Below are positions 3,501 through 63,603 of a stretch of DNA of 64,000 nucleotides, piece by piece. Every line of letters begins with the position of its first letter. Position 1 is the stretch's first letter. A program made the position numbers and the translations under genes. Source of the stretch: Buxus sempervirens (taxonomy: Eukaryota > Streptophyta > Magnoliopsida > Buxales > Buxaceae); assembly GCA_947561395.2 (NCBI GenBank), contig OX387190.1, forward strand, positions 32,110,858 through 32,174,857, given 5' to 3'. The notes under the pieces are model-generated. The model was not told the origin of the DNA. It searched no databases and worked only from the letters and a program-made list of their open reading frames with translations.

Positions 3501-6253
3501 TGGACTTTGCAGTCCATTGGTACGTTTCATAACTGTGCTTCCATCCAGTGATATAATTGTTTTTTTCTGATCTCTTTAAGGATTTATATTTTCTATATAA
3601 TTGTTTATTTTTTGTCTCTTTAAGGATTTATATTTTCTTGGTACATTACCCTTTGCTTAATTTTAATTTTTTGGTGATAAATTGTTGAGTCCTACTCAGA
3701 TATATCCTAAACTAGACATTTATTTGTCAGGATGGTTAGATCCTTCCAAACTGCTCTCCATTTGGGCAGTTGGGCATTCTAAATGCTAAGGTGGGGGAGC
3801 GGTAAGATTGATGACCAAAAAGGCTATTGAAGGCAATAAATCAGATGGGGACATGTAGAGGATTCTCTTTCTGTTTTCCTATATAATTTGTAGTTAGGGG
3901 TGCTGATGATGTAGCATTCTGTAGTAAAAAGTAATTTATTGAGAGTTTTCATATGTGAGAAATTCTCTTCCTTAAGTTTTATGCTTATATTATTAGCATA
4001 GGTTTTGCAGTTTTCCAAGAGAGGAAAAAGAAGAAAAAATAATCAAAATGGTTTTTTTTGTCATAATTTCTTGTATTCTTTGAAATAACGTGAAAATCTT
4101 GATTGTCATATCGATTGGTCAATTTCAGCAATGAATTTTTTTGGGGATAACTAATGAAGATACTTGTGTTAAGATTAAGGAAATAAATATACTTATAAAA
4201 CATTGAGCCACCAATGAGAAATGGGTGGAAATGACATACAAGACACCTGTAAACTTAATCTACTTAAGCATCAACTTTGTCATCTTCAACTTCACCAGTT
4301 ATTTTCCTCCATATGACTCTATACAATAGTGTCTTATAATGTATGCTGCATGAACACTTCTAGATGAATTAGAGCAACCTTTTTGGATACATGTCTCTGT
4401 CTAGTGTGGCACTACAGAAGTGTCAACAACAACTTTGCATGAACTTTTTTCTTTATATTGCCTGGTTAATGTTGAATAACATTTAATCAACAACATCAAC
4501 TCTATTTTCCTTGTTACGTAAAAGTTCTAAAGCAAATATAACATCTCTAGGCACCTTTCCTGATCTTTATAGATATATATTTTACAATTCATACATCTAG
4601 CAGATATTTTATGAAGTTGATTATTTTCTACCATTTCAGTTAAAATATTCTGTCAAAACCACATGTCCTATACTTGATAATTCTCTTAATTTGGCACTCT
4701 GTAAGCAATGTTATTTTCTGAAACTACTAACTGTTCCAGTGCAACATCCAGTGCAACATAATTTCTGCCTTACAGATTGTGCATTTTCTGCTTGATTTTG
4801 CAATTGGTAGTTCTTTAAGGTTGCTTGTCTTGTTTTCAGATTCCCTTGAGTTTTCAAGTCCATCTTGTACATGGTTTTCCACTCCCTGCACCCATTTACC
4901 TATTATTGCCAGTGTTTCTGATTTGAAATTCTTTTGAGTGGACTTATTTTTTGCATTTTATTTACAGTGAATTAATCTGTTGAGCCTGTTGTTTCGATCA
5001 TGTTGTACATCCTAGATAGGATATATTACTTTTCCAGCAATTTGTGACAATTTTATCATATGTTTTGACAGCGGGGAAGAGGAAACTGCAAATTTGTTGC
5101 TAGGAAAATTTAAGTGGGGTCATGCATTCTTGTCCGTCAACAGGTATGTTGCATATATTATATCAAAGAGTAATGCCAGCATAAAACTGTGGGCTGACCT
5201 TTTTGATATGGTAACGGCTTTCTTTAAATTCACCAGTACGTTATGATGCACATGCATGAAACTTGGACATGCCATGTCGGGTCTCCACCTGAAAAATCTT
5301 TTTGGTTAAAAATTGTTCAGCTTGGATGGTTGTAACCGTCTCTCAATTGATTTGTTACCTATAATTTTTGGTGATTGAGAAGAATACAATCAAAAGCTGA
5401 ATATCCTTGCCTGATTGAGGCTTCATCATGATCCATTGTAAAGTATCTCTTATCATCACCCACAGGGATGATGTATTGTTTTTTTCCAGATCATTCTGTT
5501 CATATAAGGTGGTCTCTCTCCTCTAAGATTAAGAAGTAATTAAAACACACAGAGACACTCACACACACATACATACATGGACACACACCAAATCCACCAC
5601 CACCCTTCACCCCATCCCGACCCCCCACCACGAACAATAATAAATGGTTCAATGTTGATTTGGTAGTGTTCACTTCATAATTTTCTAATTTGGACATATG
5701 ATCCATGCAGGGAGCTTCTGAAGGCTTATTCTGAATGTGGAAACAGTGCTGACATCATTTCGGTCCAAAATGCTTGGCTCTCTCAAGGCCTGAGAGTTCC
5801 AAAGCCTGTTTTGGATTCAAAAGGTACTTCACTTTTGTAAACAGAAAGTTTGAAGAAATCTTCTGATACATGCAATATATATTTTTTTCACAATGATGTT
5901 TCCAATAATTCTCTTCTGGGATCTACTATTTTAGATTCTGTAAGCTTTGTTACTATTTTGATTGGTCCTAGGTCAATATTGTTCTTTATTATGGACAAAT
6001 GAAAAACTAACTATAAGCACATGCCCTTGGTTAAACCTAGATTTTAATTGAAGTCCATTACATATGGCAATGTATAGGCATTTTAAGCTCCTTCCACATT
6101 AACCACAGGTCATTTACATTTTATGATGCTGCAGAAACAGAAATGCCCAGTGAAGATTTTGATTCTGATTACGATCCTGAAGATGGACTTCCTCCACTTG
6201 AAAAGAATTTGAATCATTTGTTATTGGAGCAGAGTGATGATGAGAGTGAGTGA
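539..6253 (+). CDS. TSR3: 18S rRNA aminocarboxypropyltransferase (TSR3-like), 3' part
   Basis: Six in-phase exons are readable: 539-579, 1522-1658, 3228-3318, 5072-5143, 5711-5823 and 6135-6253, all with AG/GT borders, giving 190 residues to a TGA at 6251. The product starts [18 protein letters not shown] and contains [28 protein letters not shown] and [18 protein letters not shown]. These match my recollection of the conserved core of TSR3, the enzyme that transfers the aminocarboxypropyl group of S-adenosylmethionine to a hypermodified pseudouridine of 18S rRNA in late small-subunit maturation. The C-terminus is acidic (EQSDDESE). The N-terminal part, with the RLI-type segment and the start codon, is missing and should lie left of the window; I found no upstream exon in 1-538. 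Introns are long (up to 1.9 kb) and repeat-bearing. Function is by family recognition; exon phases all agree. Confidence 0.9.
1185..1435. repeat. Dispersed-repeat-like segment in TSR3 intron
   Basis: This intron stretch is richer in GC than its surroundings and is built of repeated GATAC/GGTATCGG/CCGATG words (for example GGCTGATACCGAG and CCGATGAAAATCAGC). It starts after ATTAAAACTTGGTG and ends near AAACCGTGGTTAAAC, a weak inverted relation. It resembles a non-autonomous plant transposon. I found no clear target-site duplication, so the class is not assigned. Confidence 0.35.
5545..5590. repeat. CA-rich microsatellite in TSR3 intron
   Basis: An impure (CA)n tract with ACAT and AGAC interruptions sits about 120 bp before the 5711 acceptor. 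It is simple-sequence DNA with no coding signal. Confidence 0.8.

Positions 6254-32832: not shown

Positions 32833-32884
<52 letters not shown>
32833..32884 (+). repeat. 52-nt G homopolymer
   Basis: An uninterrupted run of G within the hAT element 32163-33051. Such a run could form quadruplexes, would be length-unstable, and is easily mis-sized in sequencing. The apparent polyproline frame on the minus strand across it is an artefact of the run. Confidence 0.95.
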
Positions 32885-51117: not shown

Positions 51118-51317
51118 NNNNNNNNNNNNNNNNNNNNNNNNNNNNNNNNNNNNNNNNNNNNNNNNNNNNNNNNNNNNNNNNNNNNNNNNNNNNNNNNNNN
51201 NNNNNNNNNNNNNNNNNNNNNNNNNNNNNNNNNNNNNNNNNNNNNNNNNNNNNNNNNNNNNNNNNNNNNNNNNNNNNNNNNNNNNNNNNNNNNNNNNNNN
51301 NNNNNNNNNNNNNNNNN
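51118..51317. other. Assembly gap, 200 N
   Basis: Exactly 200 unknown bases, the usual placeholder for a gap of unknown size. It falls immediately before the P450 tail at 51318, so the missing part of that gene may be hidden here. Confidence 0.99.
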
Positions 51318-52994: not shown

Positions 52995-53146
52995 GTAGAT
53001 TAGACTCTTGTGTCTGGCTCCAACGCTAAACTATGCCTGTATAGGAGATACTGTCCTTCATTTCTCTGTTGTTACACCAAGGAAGCCAAAAGTGGCATTT
53101 GATCACAAACGGCTCAATACTCCTTGAGTTTTCCGTAACGTCAAAC

Positions 53147-54738
53147 ATGTATTGGACATGGATTTCACTTGTTTTTGTGGTACTTACTTATGTCTTACAT
53201 AGTTTAGGGAGGCAGATGAAGAACAAGCATCACAATCTACCTCCTGGTCCAAAAGGGATCCCAATTCTGGGCAACCTTCATATGTTAGGAGAGTTCCCGC
53301 ACCGCAAGCTCCATAAACTAGCCATGGAACATGGAGATATCATGCATTTGCGCCTTGGCCTTGTCCCCACCATTGTTGTTTCATCACCTAGGGCTGCAGA
53401 GCTCTTCCTCAAGACACATGATCTCATATTTGCCAGTAGGCCATTTGTCCAATCTGCCAAGTATGTTGGCTATGACCGCACTGGCATGTCCTTCGCTAAA
53501 TACGGTACCCACTGGCGCAACATCCGCAAATTGTGCACCTTAGAACTGCTTAGCAGTGCAAAGATCAATTCTTTCACATCCATGAGAAGAGAAGAATTAT
53601 ACCTTCTCATTCAATCACTAAAAGATGCTGCCAAGCACGATGTCACTGTGGACGTTACTGCCAAGCTGTTCTCTCTCAACATGGACATGTCTTGCCTAAT
53701 GGTGTTTGGGAAGAAATACTTGGAAGATGATCTCAACAAAAGAGGGTTCAAAGCTGTGATTCAAGAGGGTATGCATCTAGCATCAGCACCAAACATGGCT
53801 GATTTCATCCCTATTATTGGGGTGCTTGACCTTCAGGGACTGGCTCGACGCATGAGGGCCATTAGCAAAGTCTACGATGAATTATTTGAGAAGATCATTG
53901 ATGAGCATGTCCAAACAAGAGATAAAGGACATAGCAGGGACTTTGTTGACTCTTTGTTGTCCATAATTGAATCCAACGATACTGAGTTTTCGATCACTAA
54001 ATCCAGCATGAAAGCTATAATGATGGTAAAGAAACACAGGATTACTGTACTTTAATCTCTTACTCGATCTGAAACACATATTTAATTTAACTATGTAGTA
54101 ATGGGATTTCTTTTCATTTTCAGGACATGCTTGTGGGATCAGTGGACACCTCTGCAACTGCGATTGAGTGGGCTCTCACAGAACTTCTTAGGCATCCACA
54201 AGTTATGAAGGAAGTTCAGGAGGAGTTAGAGAGAGTGGTGGGCATGGAGAGAATGGTGGAGGAATCTGACTTGGAAAACTTGGAATACTTAGACATGGTT
54301 GTGAAGGAAACCTTAAGGCTCCATCCCGTGGCCCCGTTGTTGATTCCTCATGAGTCCATGCAAGACTGCGTAGTTGATGGCTTCCACATACCTGGAAAAT
54401 CCCGAGTTATTATAAATAGTTGGGCAATTGGACGAGACTCTGAAGCATGGTTTGATGCTGAGAATTTTGTTCCTGAGAGGTTCAGGGGTGCCAATATAGA
54501 TGTTCGTGGATGCGATTTTCGGTTTCTACCGTTTGGATCTGGCAGAAGGGGTTGCCCGGGATTACAGTTGGGACTGACTGTTGTTCGGTTGGTGGTGGCA
54601 CAATTGGTGCATTGCTTTGATTGGAAGCTTCCTAATGGCATGTTGCCTACTGAGTTAGACATGACTGAGGAGTTTGGCCTCACACTTCCCAGGGCTAATC
54701 ATCTACTGGCTATTCCAACTTTTCGCCTTCCCAATTGA
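53147..54738 (+). CDS. Cytochrome P450, CYP71 clan, CYP736A-like
   Basis: Two exons, 53147-54025 and 54124-54738, join in phase 0 to 497 residues, a full-length microsomal P450. An N-terminal membrane anchor (about 3-20) leads to the proline hinge PPGP (32-35). The I-helix reads [16 protein letters not shown] (294-309), with Asp-Thr in the oxygen-activation position. The ExxR motif is E355-T-L-R358; PERF is 410-413; the heme loop [10 protein letters not shown] spans 430-439 with Cys437 as iron ligand. All catalytic signatures are intact. Similarity to CYP736A members is from memory (for example AAxxFLKTHDLxFASRP and FKAVIQEGM). CYP736A enzymes act in phenylpropanoid, biphenyl or xenobiotic hydroxylation; the substrate here is unknown. 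The frame runs upstream only through a TTG, so ATG 53147 is the start. Confidence 0.94.
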
Positions 54739-55796: not shown

Positions 55797-56570
55797 TCAA
55801 TTGGAGGGTACATGATAATACTTCCCTTTACACATGCACTTGTAAATGATGGGACATGACTCTGAACCAGGGCACTTGAAGCTCACCTTCACCCTTTTGC
55901 ATGGCATGCATGGTCCACATGCATGGGAACAGTCAGGCAAGCTCGAACCCATTGGATACAGTTCCATTGTAAGCTCCATCTTCACCCCTTTCTAAACATT
56001 CATGGTTAACAAAATCAATATTTTTGAACTCCATATTGCAGCAAACAATGAAATGTAAATATACACATATATACTTTAACCACTCTACGATTGGAACTCC
56101 ACAAATCTAGCTATAACTTACATCAAATAACTGCTCATTATAACCATCAGATATGTCATAACAAACATAAAAATGGGAAACAAACCTCAAGAAAGGCAGA
56201 ACTTCGCTCCCCTTTTGGGTCAATTTCACCACTGAAGCTTGTTGGGTTGTCTAGTAAAACAAACATAGAAGCATATAAGAAAACTATTGTGGAATAACGA
56301 ATAAGATGACAAAATAACAAAGAACAGAGCAGAAGAAAACAGAACACAATGATTCACAAGGTTCAGCCTTTAATGCCTCGTCCACAGGGGAATATAATGA
56401 AAAATGGAAAAAAAAGAAGACGAAGAAGAAGAAAGAAAGAAAAGGATAATATTTATAACGGACTAACAGTTACTAGGCATCAACCGGAAACTTGTCACAA
56501 CAATGACAACTGATAGGAGGATATAGGCCAAGACAGCCGTGTGGTTTCCAAAGCAGAGGAAGTTCTTCAT
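55797..56570 (-). CDS. EPIDERMAL PATTERNING FACTOR-LIKE 8-like secreted peptide precursor
   Basis: Three minus-strand exons, 56570-56474, 56250-56186 and 55991-55797, join with phases 1 and 0 to 118 residues. Residues 1-27 form a signal peptide (MKNFLCFGNH then a hydrophobic core AVLAYILLSVVIVV). A short variable propeptide follows. The mature domain begins near ELYPMGSSLPDCSHACGPC and has eight cysteines spaced C-x3-C-x2-C-x2-C-x8-C-x5-C-x5-C-x-C, ending YYHVPSN. This is the EPF/EPFL cysteine-rich hormone family, which acts in the apoplast on ERECTA-family and TMM receptors in stomatal and organ patterning. The GSSLPDCSHACGPC and ESCPIIYKC words point to the EPFL8 branch. Only the last exon is a visible open frame; the first two exons rest on splice signals. 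A transposon nest starts about 395 bp upstream of the start codon. Confidence 0.85.
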
Positions 56571-58396
56571 TGCTGCTCTTCTAGTTCTATTGAACTGAAC
56601 TACTTGGAGATGGAATGAAGGTATAATATTAAATAGAATACACAAAAACTTATGGAAGAGAGACCCCAAGTAAGTGAAGATGGCTGAAGACGAGGTGGTA
56701 TAAGGTGGAAGAGTGATTTGGTTTAAATGTAGAAGGACGTACACCAGATAGGCCTCACATGATCCATGGCCACTGTTTGAAAGCTTCACATGTTTGGTGA
56801 GCACCCAAAACGAAAAATACAGAAAGAAAGATCAGATGTTTCATTAATTGAAGAAGAACTGCCTCATGCGTGAGGGGGGAAAGCTTTTGGCTTAAATGAA
56901 CTTCGCAAGTTTCTTATGGTGATGTTCTGTTCCTGTATTTTCCATTTTAGGCCCCTTACACTAGGTGCCGTTTGGTTATTGCATATAAAACTTAAACCGG
57001 GAAAATTAGTTTTAAGTGATACTTTTTTAAAATAATCTAGATTCAGTCGACCAATTCTTGAAAATTAGGAATTAGTGATTTTTTTCAAATAATTGGGATT
57101 TAGTGTTATTTTACTTTTCATGAAAAAAAATTTCCAAAAATACCCTCAAAAAGACTTGCAAACCTCACTTGTAGTGAAATGGTTTTCAAAGTCTTTTTAG
57201 GGTATTCTTAAAAGAAATTCTTGATGAATAGTAAAATTTAGAGCTGTAAATCTAGCTCGAACCGCCCAACCCAACTCGAATAAGAGCTCGAAGTAAGCAT
57301 TGAGTTTGGGTTTGGATTGGGTTTCATTTCGAGCCTGAAGTTGAGTTTGGGTTGGGCTTAGGTTCAAGCTATACAACCCGAAAAGCCCAAAGTTAATGTT
57401 GACTTTATGTACACGCTCTTATATAGATATATGTATAAAACTCCACCAAAAATATATATATATATATAAGTGAATATTTATTTGTATGTCACTACTAAAA
57501 AAAGGTGATTTAGTGGCGGATGATAAGTGAGTTTTTGCGGCGGGTTTTCGTGGACCGCTGCTAAAACTGTAAAAGCATATAGTAATCGTTCGCAACTCTA
57601 TCCCTCTAACTGAGTCTTTCACAGCTTCAGTAACTCTACCTCTCTATCTCTCTCTCTCTAACTCTACAAGAAATCTCTTGCAGCATCGCTCTCCTCTGAA
57701 ATTTTCTCTCAAGTTGCAAAGTTCGAGATCTGATCGAGAGGGTTCTCGCTCTATTTCTCTCTCTCTCCACGAGATATTTCTTGCGGTATCACTCTCTATT
57801 TCCTGTGAAACATTATTTCTCAAGTTGCAATGTCTCAGATCTGGCAGAGAAGCTTCATCGATCAGCTATTTGAGTTGAGAAATTGATACATTTGATACTG
57901 ATACTTCAAAGTACACTTTTCAACTTCGATATCAAATATGTTTCTTACTCTGGAATTTGAGGTTTAGTTGTTGTATTTCCGTTTTCAGTCTGTTCTTTTG
58001 ATTTCGGAACACTTACTGTTTGTATTTTTCCCGTTTTGGATTTAGGAATGGTAGATTTAGAGTTCCGGAAGAATACACTTACCTGGTGAGTTTCAGATCT
58101 GGCGCTTGCGCTTGGATGTTTTAATGTTTTCCTAAATTTCCTCATTGATCGCAGCTTGCTTTTGGTATATCAATTGCGGTTTTCCTTTGGAGCAGATCTT
58201 GCAAGTTTTTGGGGTTTCATTGTGGTTATTTTTTAGATTGAGTACTTTTCTTATGTTTTCTTCTTCTTTTTCTTCATTTAACATGATTCTGATTTTGTAT
58301 TTTTGTAGATTGTGTGCTTTACTTTGCCTATACTCCTCTTATTGATTTTTCTTCATGTTTTTCCTTTTTGGACATCAGAACCTGTTTTCGAGTGCA

Positions 58397-58761
58397 AAAT
58401 GTGGCCATTGGGAGTGTATTGACGAAAACTACGAACCAATTTATCCCACTGCATCCGTCTTGGATACTAAGAATTTGCCCAGAAATTTTGATTGGAGAGA
58501 CAGAGGAGCTGTCACCGAGGTCAAGATGCAGGTTGGTGTTTCTATGATTGTCTTTACATGTAACCAGTAGTCTCTCTCTCTCTCCTCGTTTAATCGATGG
58601 CAAGTATTTGGAATATCAATGCAGGGAGCGTGTGGGTCTTGTTGGGCATTTAGCACTACAGGAGCTGTGGAAGGAGCCAACTTTATTGCAACAGGGAAGC
58701 TTCTCAATCTTAGTGAGCAACAGCTTTTGGATTGTGATCATGCGGTCTGCTCCATATTAAG
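58397..58761 (+). pseudogene. Captured RD19-like papain-type cysteine protease fragment
   Basis: Exon-like blocks 58397-58531 and 58625-58761 flank a retained intron with GT/AG ends. The first reads toward LDTKNLPRNFDWRDRGAVTE, the start of the mature protease. The second reads [17 protein letters not shown], with the catalytic Cys of the GSCW motif, then [19 protein letters not shown]. It breaks off after that. The prodomain and the catalytic His and Asn regions are missing, so it cannot encode an active enzyme. The DFDWR/NFDWRDxGAVT and ATGKLxxLSEQQLxDCDH words point to the RD19 (cathepsin F-like) group. It lies wholly inside the CACTA element, in the + direction. Confidence 0.88.
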
Positions 58762-59958
58762 GTGCGTCAAGTCTCAATAATTTAGGCCTTATGTTCACGG
58801 ATTAGTACACCATGAAGTTATATTATCAAAAGAAGCCTCCATATCTATGACCTTAATTTCAATGCCATAGAATCAGAATAAACCTGCAACTGTAAATCAT
58901 TCTAACCAGATCCTCCTTACAGATAATGCTTTACTCTGCAGTGAAGTTTTTCCGTCAGGGAAAGAAAGAAACTAGCATAGACGAGGTGCATTATATTAAC
59001 CATGTTGGAAATATGAAATTTTTAATTATATGCAGGGTGCTAAATGACCAGGTACTATAAGTAAACATGTTATTTTATTGTAATTTTTAACTGGTGACTT
59101 CAATATATATCTATAAGAAAGAGAGAATAACTATGTATTAGTTAACAGTGCCCAGGCTTTTTAAACTTGGTGTATCTTGAGAAGATAAACTAAAGAGATT
59201 AATACTGAAAGTTACTGAAGCAAACATCACTTTTTCATTACAGGTATAGCCATGAGAACTTGAGTTCCATATTGTATTAAACTTTCTTGATGCTTTGTAC
59301 TTCCTAGGTTTTTTTCTCAATGACTATACTTGCTAGAACAGGGGATTCACTTCCATCAGATTGTCTTGTAGAATTTTGATTGAGGTTTATATGTTTTTAT
59401 AGGTGGAACCCCGTCACGTCCGTGTGGCTGTCAGATTGCTAAAAACATATGTAATAAGGTAAGGGCATTTTTTCACCATCTTCAGTATCTTTTGCTTCCA
59501 CTTCGCTGTGTCTTCAAGTTTATAATGATGTTTCCTTCCACCATGTAGCGTTGAGTCGAGTGAGATTGATCTGTCTGACTTTCAAGAAGAGGGAAATCGT
59601 GATGATGGGGATGGTGGTGATGGTGGAAACAGAAGTTCAGATCAAGGAGATGCTCAGCCACGTACTGCTGCAGTGAGAGTCACTACACCTGGATCTTGGG
59701 TGCTGAAGTGAGAGTCTAATTGATGATATATTAGCTTGAAATTTACACCACAGAATGGTAGCACATGCCCTAAAGCCTTCAAAAAACCTTCTGAGGCCTA
59801 AAAAATTGAGCCTAAAAATGCAACCTCTTTTACTGAAATTTGATTGAATTGAAGCAATTACCAGGAACTGACTTGTAGCGGGGTTTCAAAACATTTTCAG
59901 GGAGTTGATTGGCCGGGATGAGGCAGTGGGATTTGATCCAGTGGTACGTGGGCAGCGT

Positions 59959-60045
59959 GCAGAGGGCAGGGGCAGTGGGGGCAAGGGGCAAGGGGCAGCG
60001 GGGGCAAGGGGCAAGGGGCAGCGGGCAGGGAGCATGAGGGCAAGG
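59959..60045. repeat. G-rich minisatellite inside the CACTA element
   Basis: Repeats of GGGGCAAGGGGCA and GGGGCAGCG form a G-rich stretch near the right end. Long minus-strand frames here (Pro/Leu/Ala/Cys-rich) are composition artefacts. Confidence 0.8.
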
Positions 60046-61361
60046 TAGCATAGGGCAGCTTAGAGGAGGGACGTTGTAAAAAAATTTTTTTCAAACAAAA
60101 CAGCTTTTTGCGGCAGTCAAAAAACCGCTGCTAAAAACAAAGGTGCCCGCCGCAAAATGATTCAGCGACGGGACTTTTAGGGACGGGCTTCCGTCGGGCC
60201 CATTAGTTTTTAGCGGCGGTTTTTGATGATTTAGCGGCAGTCAATGACCGCCGCTAAATGTCATCTTTTTTGTAGTGTGTATATGTATCATTGTTTTCTT
60301 TTCCTTTTATATTGTCATTGTTTTTCTGCAATCAACTATTAAACATAAATTATTAACATGTGATAATAAGTTTATAAATTTTTATCAAATAAATAATTTT
60401 ATACTCACATACATATACATATATATTACAATGAATGTGATATTTGGGAGCACATACTCTACAAGAAAGATTGTGCAAAACCACAAATATAGTGAGCTAG
60501 TATTATATTTTAAAATTTTTAAATAAATTAATTAATTAAATGTGTTTTTCCCAAATTCAAGGGACAAATTAAGAGGAATTTGTAATATTCGCATTTATAA
60601 CAAACAAACATAAAAGCTTATTGATAGACGAATTAATGAATGATATTCCAACATTTTGTAATTATAACAAAAATTGTAAAAAAATTCAAAATCTTACATT
60701 TTGTTTGGGCCAACCTAAACCCAGCCCGAACTCAAACAATAATATTTGGGTTTAATGAATTTGGGTTAGGAAGGGTCAACGATGAATTTGGGTTAATAAA
60801 TCCTAGATTGGGTTGAACCCGAACTCTCATAACCCCACCCAACTCGTCCTACTTACACCTCTAGTAAAATGACATTAAATCCCATTTATATAAAAAAAAG
60901 CATCTCTAATTTTCAATTTTCAAATATTTGTCGAATGAAGCTAGATTATTTTGAAAAATATCACTAAAAACCAATTTCCCCACTTAAACCTGAGTGGTAG
61001 AAAATGTTCATTTTCTTAACATGTCCAAACCGAGCTTGGGTGGCCTTGCCTCAGAACCGTAAAAAATATTGTAACGAAATTATCCATGAATCCAATGTTA
61101 TATTTTAGTAAACATTCTAGGTTCCCGCTTACAATGAGAAAGTCGTATTGAAATTAGTTAACTTGCCGGTTTTGACTTTAGCCACGTGGCTAACATGGGG
61201 CACGTCAGTAGTCAGGAGTCAGGTGAAGTCCGCTTACAGTACACATAGCTAAATCTGAATTGCCTGCCTTTCACCTTTACCAAATGTAGCGATTACAAAC
61301 CTAAACAGAAGCAATCAAAACGAATCAAAATCGATCACCATTTTGATTTGGATTTGGAATC

Positions 61362-62126
61362 TCAAACAGCAAGCTGAATGTCCTTGAAGTCCATCTCGCT
61401 CGCGATGTCTTCTAGCTGTTTCTTCACGCTCATATCTATGAGCTTTGATCCCGAGCTCCCGTACCTGATCGTGAACCCTGCGATCAGCGACGGATCGATC
61501 ACTGTCTTGATCCTCACGTTCTTTGCTCCCGTAAGCTTCTGCACCTGCTTGGCGATCTGCGCCAGGTGCTGCGATTCCAGCTTCACCACCGAACTCACGG
61601 TCGCTAGCTCCGTATCCGTTATTTTGTTGTACACCACCTCGAATTCATGCACGATCTCCTTGATCAACTCTATCCGCTTCATGTCGATCAAGATGTTCAA
61701 GAAATTCGCCGTGTAAGGCTGGAGACTCGACGAGGTCGCGATCTCGTCGATCATCTTCCGCTTCTTCTCCACGGGGATGGTCGGATTAATGAAGAAACTG
61801 CAAACCTGAGGCTCCGTGAAGAACTTCTCGACCTTCTCCATGTCCGCACTCGTTGATTCCAAGGTTCCGTTCGCTTTCGCCACGTCGGCTAGCGCGGATG
61901 CGTAGCTCGCTGCAGCCGAGACCACCATCTTCGCACCGGCCGCGCCGCCGCCGCGGCGGGATCTGGTTTTGCCGGCGAATTTTACGGTGAGTTTTGGGAG
62001 TTTGAGCGACGAAAAGTTGCCGGAGAATGATAGAAGGGGCTTTTGTGTTAGGTTTTTGCGCGATACACGTACCGACGGTGGGAATTTGGTTTGCAATGCG
62101 ACCGGAGATTGTTGTAGAGCCGCCAT
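61362..62126 (-). CDS. ATPD: ATP synthase delta chain, chloroplastic
   Basis: A single-exon gene of 254 residues from ATG 62126 (MAALQQSPVALQTKFPPSV), with another in-frame ATG at 62231 that would add 35 residues. The transit peptide (1 to about 67) is rich in Ser, Lys and Arg and nearly free of acids. The mature part begins near MVVSAAASYASALADVAKAN and shows the OSCP/delta fold: FFINPTIPVEKKRKMIDEI, NFLNILIDMKRIELIKEIV and, at the end, VIDPSLIAGFTIRYGSSGSK followed by DMSVKKQLEDIA. Delta caps the CF1 head and ties it to the peripheral stalk on the stromal side of the thylakoid. I chose the second ATG because transit peptides in this family begin MAAL- or MASL-like. Product is certain, start fairly so. 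Confidence 0.96.
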   Translation of the reverse strand: MAALQQSPVALQTKFPPSVRVSRKNLTQKPLLSFSGNFSSLKLPKLTVKFAGKTRSRRGGGAAGAKMVVSAAASYASALADVAKANGTLESTSADMEKVEKFFTEPQVCSFFINPTIPVEKKRKMIDEIATSSSLQPYTANFLNILIDMKRIELIKEIVHEFEVVYNKITDTELATVSSVVKLESQHLAQIAKQVQKLTGAKNVRIKTVIDPSLIAGFTIRYGSSGSKLIDMSVKKQLEDIASEMDFKDIQLAV

Positions 62127-62239
62127 ATTCGCCGCCGAGAAGAAGACCGGAGTTTGGATTTTGAATGCTTTTTGGCTTATTTTTGGTGAAGGATGGAAAG
62201 AGAGAGGTTTTGATGGTAACGGATGGCTCACAACTTGAT

Positions 62240-63603
62240 AAGTTTGGCTATCTACGGTGGAGAATAATCGGATTATCTTGTAATCTGGCGAATGTTATCC
62301 TTTAAACTTGGACGTACAGTATCTTGACAGGTGGAGAGATGAATGAGGTGGAGCTCAATATTTCAAATGACACAGGCTAAAAGTGCGGAAAAGAATAATA
62401 AAAAGAAAAAGAAAAAGGGCGAAACTGTAATAACTTAATTGGTTTAACCAGAAAAAGAATATATATATATGTAAAAAACTAAAGAGAAGAAGGAGAATAT
62501 TCCTTCCAGGTTTTAGTCCTCTTTTTTTTTTTTTTGGACATTATCCTCTTCAAATAAAACAATCCTCCGTAATTACTTTGGGTTGTTTATCAAAGTGGAG
62601 CTAAATTTTCTACACGTATAGCGCGTGCAGCCCCCTAGTCTATATTTAACGCAAGGACCCTTGGCAAGTTGAGCCTAAAGAAATTCACAACTTTTCCAAA
62701 ATGCCTATAATTTGGGTTTCAATAATACAGGGCTCTAACCCATGCCATAAAAGTCTAGGTTAACTAAATTCATTTCTAGTCTTATCAGGTTGGTGGTAGG
62801 GTGGATCGAGCTTAATTTTTATAAATTAATAATAATAATATGAATGTTTTTAAATTAGATATATAAACTAATAATATATTATTCATAAAATATATTCTTT
62901 TATATGTTATACATATAAAAGATAATATTTTTATAGCTTAAGGTAGGACAGGTTGGAAGTCATTGAAAGGAAGTACAATGGCTTTGTCAATTATTATTGG
63001 CCTTTTGGAATTCAAAAACCAAAAACTTATCAAAAGTCAATATACGGGGCAGAAGAGCCACAATTGAAAAGCGTTATTTTTTTTGATCGCAAATCCGGGT
63101 GTGGCGGGTGCCCAGTTAGCCCGACCCGTTACCGTCGACGACGAGATATAGACCCAGTTGTAAAGCGGGTTTTCCTCTCAAGTGTTATTGGCGTATTACG
63201 CATACCTCATCCACGAACGGCGCATCTTAGACGTTCTTTTGGGATCCTTCGCTAGGAAGTAAATTCGGGTGACGCGTCTCGACCGCGAGCGAAGAGCAGG
63301 TGCAATTTCTCGTCATCTTTTCTACCCTTTTTTTTTTATTTAAATGTAATATTTACTACTCGATTCGTAGTACGACGCGTTCTGTTATAAATTCTCTTTT
63401 AGGAATCGAAATGATCATCTTCCTTGACGATTCCTACCAAAAAAAAAAATCTTCCTTGACGATTGATCCAAACATTTCGTTTCTGTTTTTTTTTTCCCTT
63501 TGAGGTACTCAGATCATCAAGAAGAGACTAGGGAAAGTTATTGGGGAGTTCTTGACAGTTGAATTAGGGTATCGGTTTGATCGTTGGATTAGACACGGTG
63601 ATA
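62240..63603. other. Divergent intergenic region between ATPD and IST1-like genes
   Basis: Both genes are transcribed outward from here, so it holds two promoters. The ATPD side has GATAAG (from 62238) and GATAATC-type I-box-like words. The middle is AT-rich. Around 63070-63300 the DNA turns GC-richer with several CG dinucleotides, probably the IST1-like 5' flank and leader. The 100-codon frame at 62953 has no recognisable product. Confidence 0.5.

Follow-up and report, generated by a model that had tools for sequence, protein, structure and literature searches.

Fragments of host genes are known to travel on CACTA transposons. As described in the packFinder study (PMC8903248), Pack-CACTA elements of Arabidopsis and maize have CACTA ends, generate a 3-bp target duplication, lack a transposase and carry host coding DNA, and their cargo is sometimes drawn from several loci. 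That study and PMC13317346 present multi-locus Pack-CACTAs together with a model in which neighbouring CACTA elements fuse; the related elements described below fit this model. We analysed a 64,000-nucleotide stretch of the Buxus sempervirens genome (the window; C12:32110858-32174857 of a 676.5-Mb assembly), in which a sequence-only reading had recognised a Pack-CACTA element with exons of an RD19-like cysteine protease. The element type and the capture stand, while the cargo had been described incompletely: it stems from four source genes rather than one. That 57490-60277 is a non-autonomous Pack-CACTA carrying four host-gene pieces has, in our estimation, a probability of about 0.88. Labels of the form L0xx denote stretches of this same genome taken for comparison, and CACTA elements were compared among 20 such stretches.

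Structure of the element

The element is complete, non-autonomous and 2,788 bp long (57490-60277; Table 1), with matched inverted ends (5' end CACTACTAAAAAAAGGTGATTTAGTGGCGG; 3' end, reverse-complemented, CACTACAAAAAAGATGACATTTAGCGGCGG) and TGT at either side. The window contains 553 CACTA...TAGTG pairs 0.3-20 kb apart, 14 of which have matching 3-bp flanks; among these 14, the 57490/60277 pair possesses the best end alignment (score 18, against 10.5 for the runner-up), and of 20,000 position pairs drawn at random (pairs touching N skipped) not one reached this score, their maximum being 15.5. The end alignment and the flanks thus bear out the clean inverted ends and TGT duplication previously proposed. 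Subterminal GCGGC arrays had been claimed as well, a description that suits the 3' arm (5 copies, both strands counted) better than the 5' arm (1 copy). No transposase domain was detected inside the element by a six-frame Pfam scan (E up to 0.05), which returned Peptidase_C1 (2.9e-18) and a sub-threshold DED match (E 0.016) that is taken as chance. An exact scan of prokaryote genomes with the 5' end of the element gave no match.

Table 1. Features of the chimeric element and of the repeats around it (window positions)
Feature	Position	Strand	Basis or detail
Older foldback MITE-like repeat, insertion site of the hAT-like element	56992..60988	.	arms ~56992-57115 and 60863-60988
hAT-like element, insertion site of the CACTA element	57239..60863	.	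flanks GTAAAATT/GTAAAATG, 7/8 matching (by eye)
Left target-site duplication, TGT	57487..57489	.	
Whole element, chimeric Pack-CACTA	57490..60277	+	ends, duplication, four independent insertions
5' terminal inverted repeat	57490..57519	+	alignment of both ends
5' arm (blocks 5A and W), common to other CACTA elements of the genome	57490..57930	+	
Leader (exon and intron sequence upstream of coding start)	57931..58435	+	87% to L035, match C6:48105317-48105850
RD19-like cysteine protease fragment, Gly-Ser-Cys-Trp motif	58436..58751	+	Peptidase_C1 1e-24, splice sites
Parts of the RD19 fragment	exon 58436-58531; intron 58532-58624; exon 58625-58744		then start of next intron
CDC6 C-terminal exons and introns (winged-helix region), decayed	58752..59391	+	CDC6 gene tail on C1 (L036)
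MCM6 fragment	59380..59956	+	95-96% to MCM6 gene on C8 (L029)
3' arm: GCGGC-containing inverted repeats and short G-rich repeats	59957..60277	+	
3' terminal inverted repeat	60248..60277	-	alignment of both ends
Right target-site duplication, TGT	60278..60280	.	

Copies and target duplications

A genome search with the element DNA gave at least 52 matches from the best 40 of 311 candidates scored, so that counts are lower bounds. Among the matches listed, the chimera recurs at C1:28700208 (97%) and, in copies split by ~16 kb and ~2.8 kb, at C3:43563391-43582220 and C3:24274304-24279838, respectively. Absence of target duplications at other copies had been named as evidence against the element; the four independent insertions are all flanked by exact ones (TGT in the window, ATA on C1, CAA at C3:43.58 Mb and AGA at C3:24.27 Mb, the last holding if the mutated end GTAGGG is the terminus). 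Since the same chimera is found at four places with different flanks, it moved after capture. The four insertions differ from one another by 0.002-0.055 in their cargo blocks and by up to 0.09 in the terminal arms. Both ends could be located in seven other elements, five of which have exact duplications (AAT in L026, AAG in L027, ATT in L031, AGA in L032 and GCC in L033); two of three bases match in L034, and L028, whose ends are degenerate, has no duplication. Of the 11 elements in which both ends could be located, the chimeras included, 9 have exact duplications, a count that omits L030, L037, L038, L039, L040, L011 and L014, where an end is missing or was not located. CACTA inverted ends, 3-bp duplications, absence of a transposase of its own, host gene fragments and movement after capture together make the element a Pack-CACTA.

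Captured gene fragments

Comparison by blast with stretches of the same genome identifies four pieces in the interior, all in sense orientation: a leader from a putative IQD gene, the RD19-like protease, the C-terminus of CDC6, and MCM6. The leader matches C6 DNA upstream of a coding exon reading MGKSPGKWIRTLLFGKKASKSNLSRK; we assume this to be an IQD (IQ67-domain) gene, and a Pfam scan of it gave no match.

The CDC6 piece proper (58828-59391) is 79-82% identical to the L036 gene tail, and the 76 bp before it (58752-58827) are common to other elements and absent from the CDC6 gene. When spliced, the L036 tail matches Cdc6_C (2.2e-24) and, in the PDB, the Cell division control protein 6 homolog (1.2e-8). 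In a scan of 10 kb of L036, Cdc6_C scored E 0.039 and an ATPase domain was not detected; L036 thus supports the CDC6 tail only. The possibility that L036 is itself a decayed copy was set aside after its CDC6 C-terminal exons had been read by eye. A whole-genome search with PF09079 found no match (2 candidates), probably an effect of searching exons singly and thus of little bearing on CDC6, and the element's own CDC6 peptide, used as a PDB query, gave one unrelated weak match only. Reading by eye, the captured piece has a stop in a later exon (in the donor frame) and another exon partly deleted; its exons have diverged by 0.125 and 0.175, versus 0.194-0.212 for its introns.

The MCM6 piece is identified by its DNA identity to L029, where the P-loop, OB and lid MCM domains exceed the cut-off, and MCM_N and MCM6_C fall slightly short of it. 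Profile scans of the short MCM6 fragments themselves were weak (E 0.098, 0.15), empty, or returned an unrelated family at 0.019. Relative to the donor, ~280 bp are missing between 59673 and 59678.

Related elements and proposed stepwise assembly

The window element reads 5A-W-leader-RD19-CDC6-MCM6-3E, and several related CACTA elements have modules in common with it and different ends. L027 is organised as 5D-CDC6-3D, L028 as 5D-CDC6-MCM6-3E, and L026 as 5B-SYP-internal 5D block-CDC6-MCM6-3E, its 5D block being without the outer 72 bp. A second CACTA family of ~3.5-4 kb (L030-L034; L030 without the 3' end) has the order 5B-SYP-MCM6-WD40-3B, and partial relatives contain CDC6 pieces (L037-L039) or 5A-W followed by ~136 bp of the leader (L040, L011, L014). 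The SYP module is presumably a SYP7-type syntaxin fragment, and the WD40 module gives weak matches to a WD40 protein. With both of these in related elements, a selective theme of replication genes (CDC6 with MCM6) found no support. Family B elements possess another portion of MCM6 (donor 3777-3987 plus 4929-5723), which means that MCM6 was either captured twice or captured as a larger piece and then trimmed differently.

L027, L028 and L026 look like assembly intermediates, with CDC6 only, CDC6 plus MCM6, and a hybrid organisation, respectively. Under a fusion model, CACTA elements would have inserted close together, lost their facing ends and been mobilised as a single unit, and an internal 5D remnant without its outer 72 bp, such as that of L026, is what would be expected of neighbours fused in this way. 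The final step would have been the fusion of a 5A-leader element with a CDC6-MCM6-3E element around a stretch of an RD19 gene, and transposase from other CACTA elements would afterwards have moved the chimera; Transposase_21 has at least 150 matches in the genome (150 of 520 candidates scored). We infer fusion, which we consider probable, from the mosaics, because no donor locus has two flanking CACTA remnants: paired remnants were found in none of L029, L035 and L036 (10 kb each), where CACTA-block matches did not exceed 37 bp. An alternative, somewhat unlikely in our view, is that gap repair or template switching, following excision, copied the pieces into the element. This process predicts that the source genes survive, and donor-like genes for three of the four pieces (leader on C6, CDC6 on C1, MCM6 on C8) are indeed present in the same genome; likewise, the CDC6/MCM6 junction falls within a 12-bp stretch (59380-59391) covered by both source alignments. 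However, ends of mixed families and the truncated internal 5' remnant of L026 are predictions of fusion.

The divergence of each piece from its host gene offers a relative chronology. The K2P distance is 0.21 for CDC6 in the window copy (0.20-0.21 over the four insertions), 0.09 for the leader (0.08-0.10) and 0.04 for MCM6 (0.02-0.05). CDC6, having the highest value, would therefore be the oldest capture, with the reservation that the loci compared, those on C1 and C6 among them, may be paralogous to the true donors; the timing of the MCM6 capture and that of the chimera's spread do not separate clearly.

The protease fragment and its missing donor

The spliced RD19 fragment covers profile positions 1-60 of 220 of Peptidase_C1, and its intron is bounded by GT...AG, the acceptor falling at the codon where the C4 RD19 gene of the host also has it (by eye). 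It thereby resembles the papain-like cysteine protease RD19 (C1A) in its active-site Cys region and intron position, and the earlier description of a protease fragment with its intron in place, keeping the catalytic Cys motif and having lost His and Asn, proved accurate. Compared with an RD19 gene, the element holds parts of two exons only, without the prodomain, His and Asn regions, and hence without the complete catalytic set; it is not a gene. The extent first given, 58397-58761, had to be corrected to ~58436-58751, since 58397-58435 still matches the C6 leader gene and the block common to CDC6-carrying elements begins at 58752.

The RD19 block is found only at insertions of this chimera (6 genome matches, the sixth being the C6 leader gene). 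A protein search of the genome with the fragment gave 72 matches, the best beyond the element lying at C4:3865744 (80%) and C12:39800696 (73%). A second query, the C-terminal half of an RD19 protein, gave 71 matches and reached RD19 level only on C4 (85 and 89%) and C12 (73 and 86%). Both protein halves are present at each of these two loci, and the searches with both halves revealed neither a third RD19 gene or orphan half in the assembly nor additional protease exons next to the element on C12. A complete protease running on past the CACTA ends, which the sequence-only reading had put forward as contrary evidence, was thus not found. Aligning the fragment to the genome's RD19 genes had been expected to lead to the donor; the two RD19-type genes found in this assembly, on C4 and C12, are neither of them a close match, and no close donor was found in it.

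Exon 2 differs from that of the C4 gene at 6, 2 and 22 first, second and third codon positions, and of its 40 codons 17 differ synonymously and 8 non-synonymously, as if the sequence had belonged to a constrained, working gene until recently. The absent donor may be explained by loss of a third RD19 gene, by a gap in the assembly or by arrival from a relative. One version of the first, which we consider improbable, would have the capture remove its own source: the fusion element would have excised with the RD19 exons, the third RD19 gene would have been lost, and the transposon copies would be its sole remains in the genome. It draws on the fact that RD19 alone of the four pieces is without a donor-like gene, on the confinement of the RD19 block to the chimera, and on the codon pattern. 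Descent of the piece from an old, decayed capture of the surviving C4 or C12 gene would accord with these two being the only RD19-type genes found; we judge it quite unlikely, given that differences from C4 are concentrated at third positions and mostly synonymous, as expected of a gene under constraint (for C12 the comparison is by protein only, 73%), and that copies of the RD19 block are only 0.013-0.026 apart.

Transcripts, small RNAs and the mode of capture

At GT/AG borders, splicing would bring the RD19 exons and the first CDC6 exon together in frame. Most likely the element carries its exons passively, and splicing could bring them into chimeric transcripts; chimeric messages from it are possible. 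A stronger proposal, that the chimera has become a new, expressed gene in which RD19 exons and the first CDC6 exon are spliced in frame, appears very improbable. Across the RD19 exon-1 part, RD19 exon 2 and CDC6 exon A, the joined reading frame has no stop and includes ATG codons, and for the soybean element Tgm-Express1 (PMC1947982) fragments spliced into chimeric transcripts have been described. Nevertheless, no start codon was identified at the beginning of the joined frame, the ATG just upstream (MWPLGVY, frame 2) is out of frame, the later CDC6 exon has the donor-frame stop noted above, and ~16 bases of the RD19 block are lost in one of the four insertions.

Small RNAs directed against RD19 genes, another suggestion of the sequence-only reading, are unlikely, because the RD19 fragment and exon 2 of the C4 RD19 gene have no 18-mer in common, the comparison covering this exon of this gene only. 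Shared 21-mers with the host gene amount to 192/557 for MCM6 (11/33, 71/105 and 2/36 in its exons), 87/485 for the leader, 0/608 for CDC6 and 0/100 for RD19 exon 2 (versus C4). A small-RNA effect on MCM6 or the leader gene would be the only such idea that the sequences support.

Capture at the DNA level, as originally proposed, is upheld by the introns retained in all four pieces (leader, RD19, CDC6 and MCM6), which refute capture through mRNA (retroposition) for the window element and leave it next to no chance, the L032-L034 elements, whose MCM6 without intron sequence looked spliced at first, having lost a stretch that includes an exon and ignores splice sites.

Surrounding DNA

The CACTA element lies within a hAT-like element, itself inserted in one arm of an older foldback repeat. 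An identical copy of the window element, with shared flanks, occurs 202,189 bases away on C12. It was rejected as a new transposition: 5,788 bases, including 1.5 kb on each side and part of the upstream P450 gene, are 100% identical at the same offset, which represents either an assembly duplicate or a very recent segmental duplication. A scaffold gap (200-base N run) is located at 51118-51317, and on its right-hand side the stretches 53100-54000 and 55990-61777 show 100% identity with the C12 DNA at that distance. The gene at 53045-54735, which we take to be P450-like, has three similar places (79-93%) beside the duplicate, at C12:32348938-32356555. A minus-strand frame at 61365-62294 presumably encodes the chloroplast ATP synthase delta subunit, and a run of 52 G occupies 32833-32884.

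Comparison with known systems

A literature search for CACTA elements with CDC6 and MCM6 returned a single paper, an unrelated one on yeast. For gene collection by Pack elements, the fusion model so far rests on some examples; one genome with elements readable as successive stages, donor-like genes and measurable divergences renders the order of capture testable. For annotators, protease, CDC6 and MCM6 fragments on mobile DNA could pass for genes. Tgm-Express1 (PMC1947982) lies within an intron of a flower-colour gene, and splicing of its exons has been shown, whereas the element described here is found inside other repeats. Relative to Pack-CACTAs as described in PMC8903248, it is accompanied in one genome by likely intermediates with different ends, and its cargo modules can be ordered; otherwise it is of the same kind. 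The phenomenon is already known, and the element is an unusually readable example of it, ordinary in kind.
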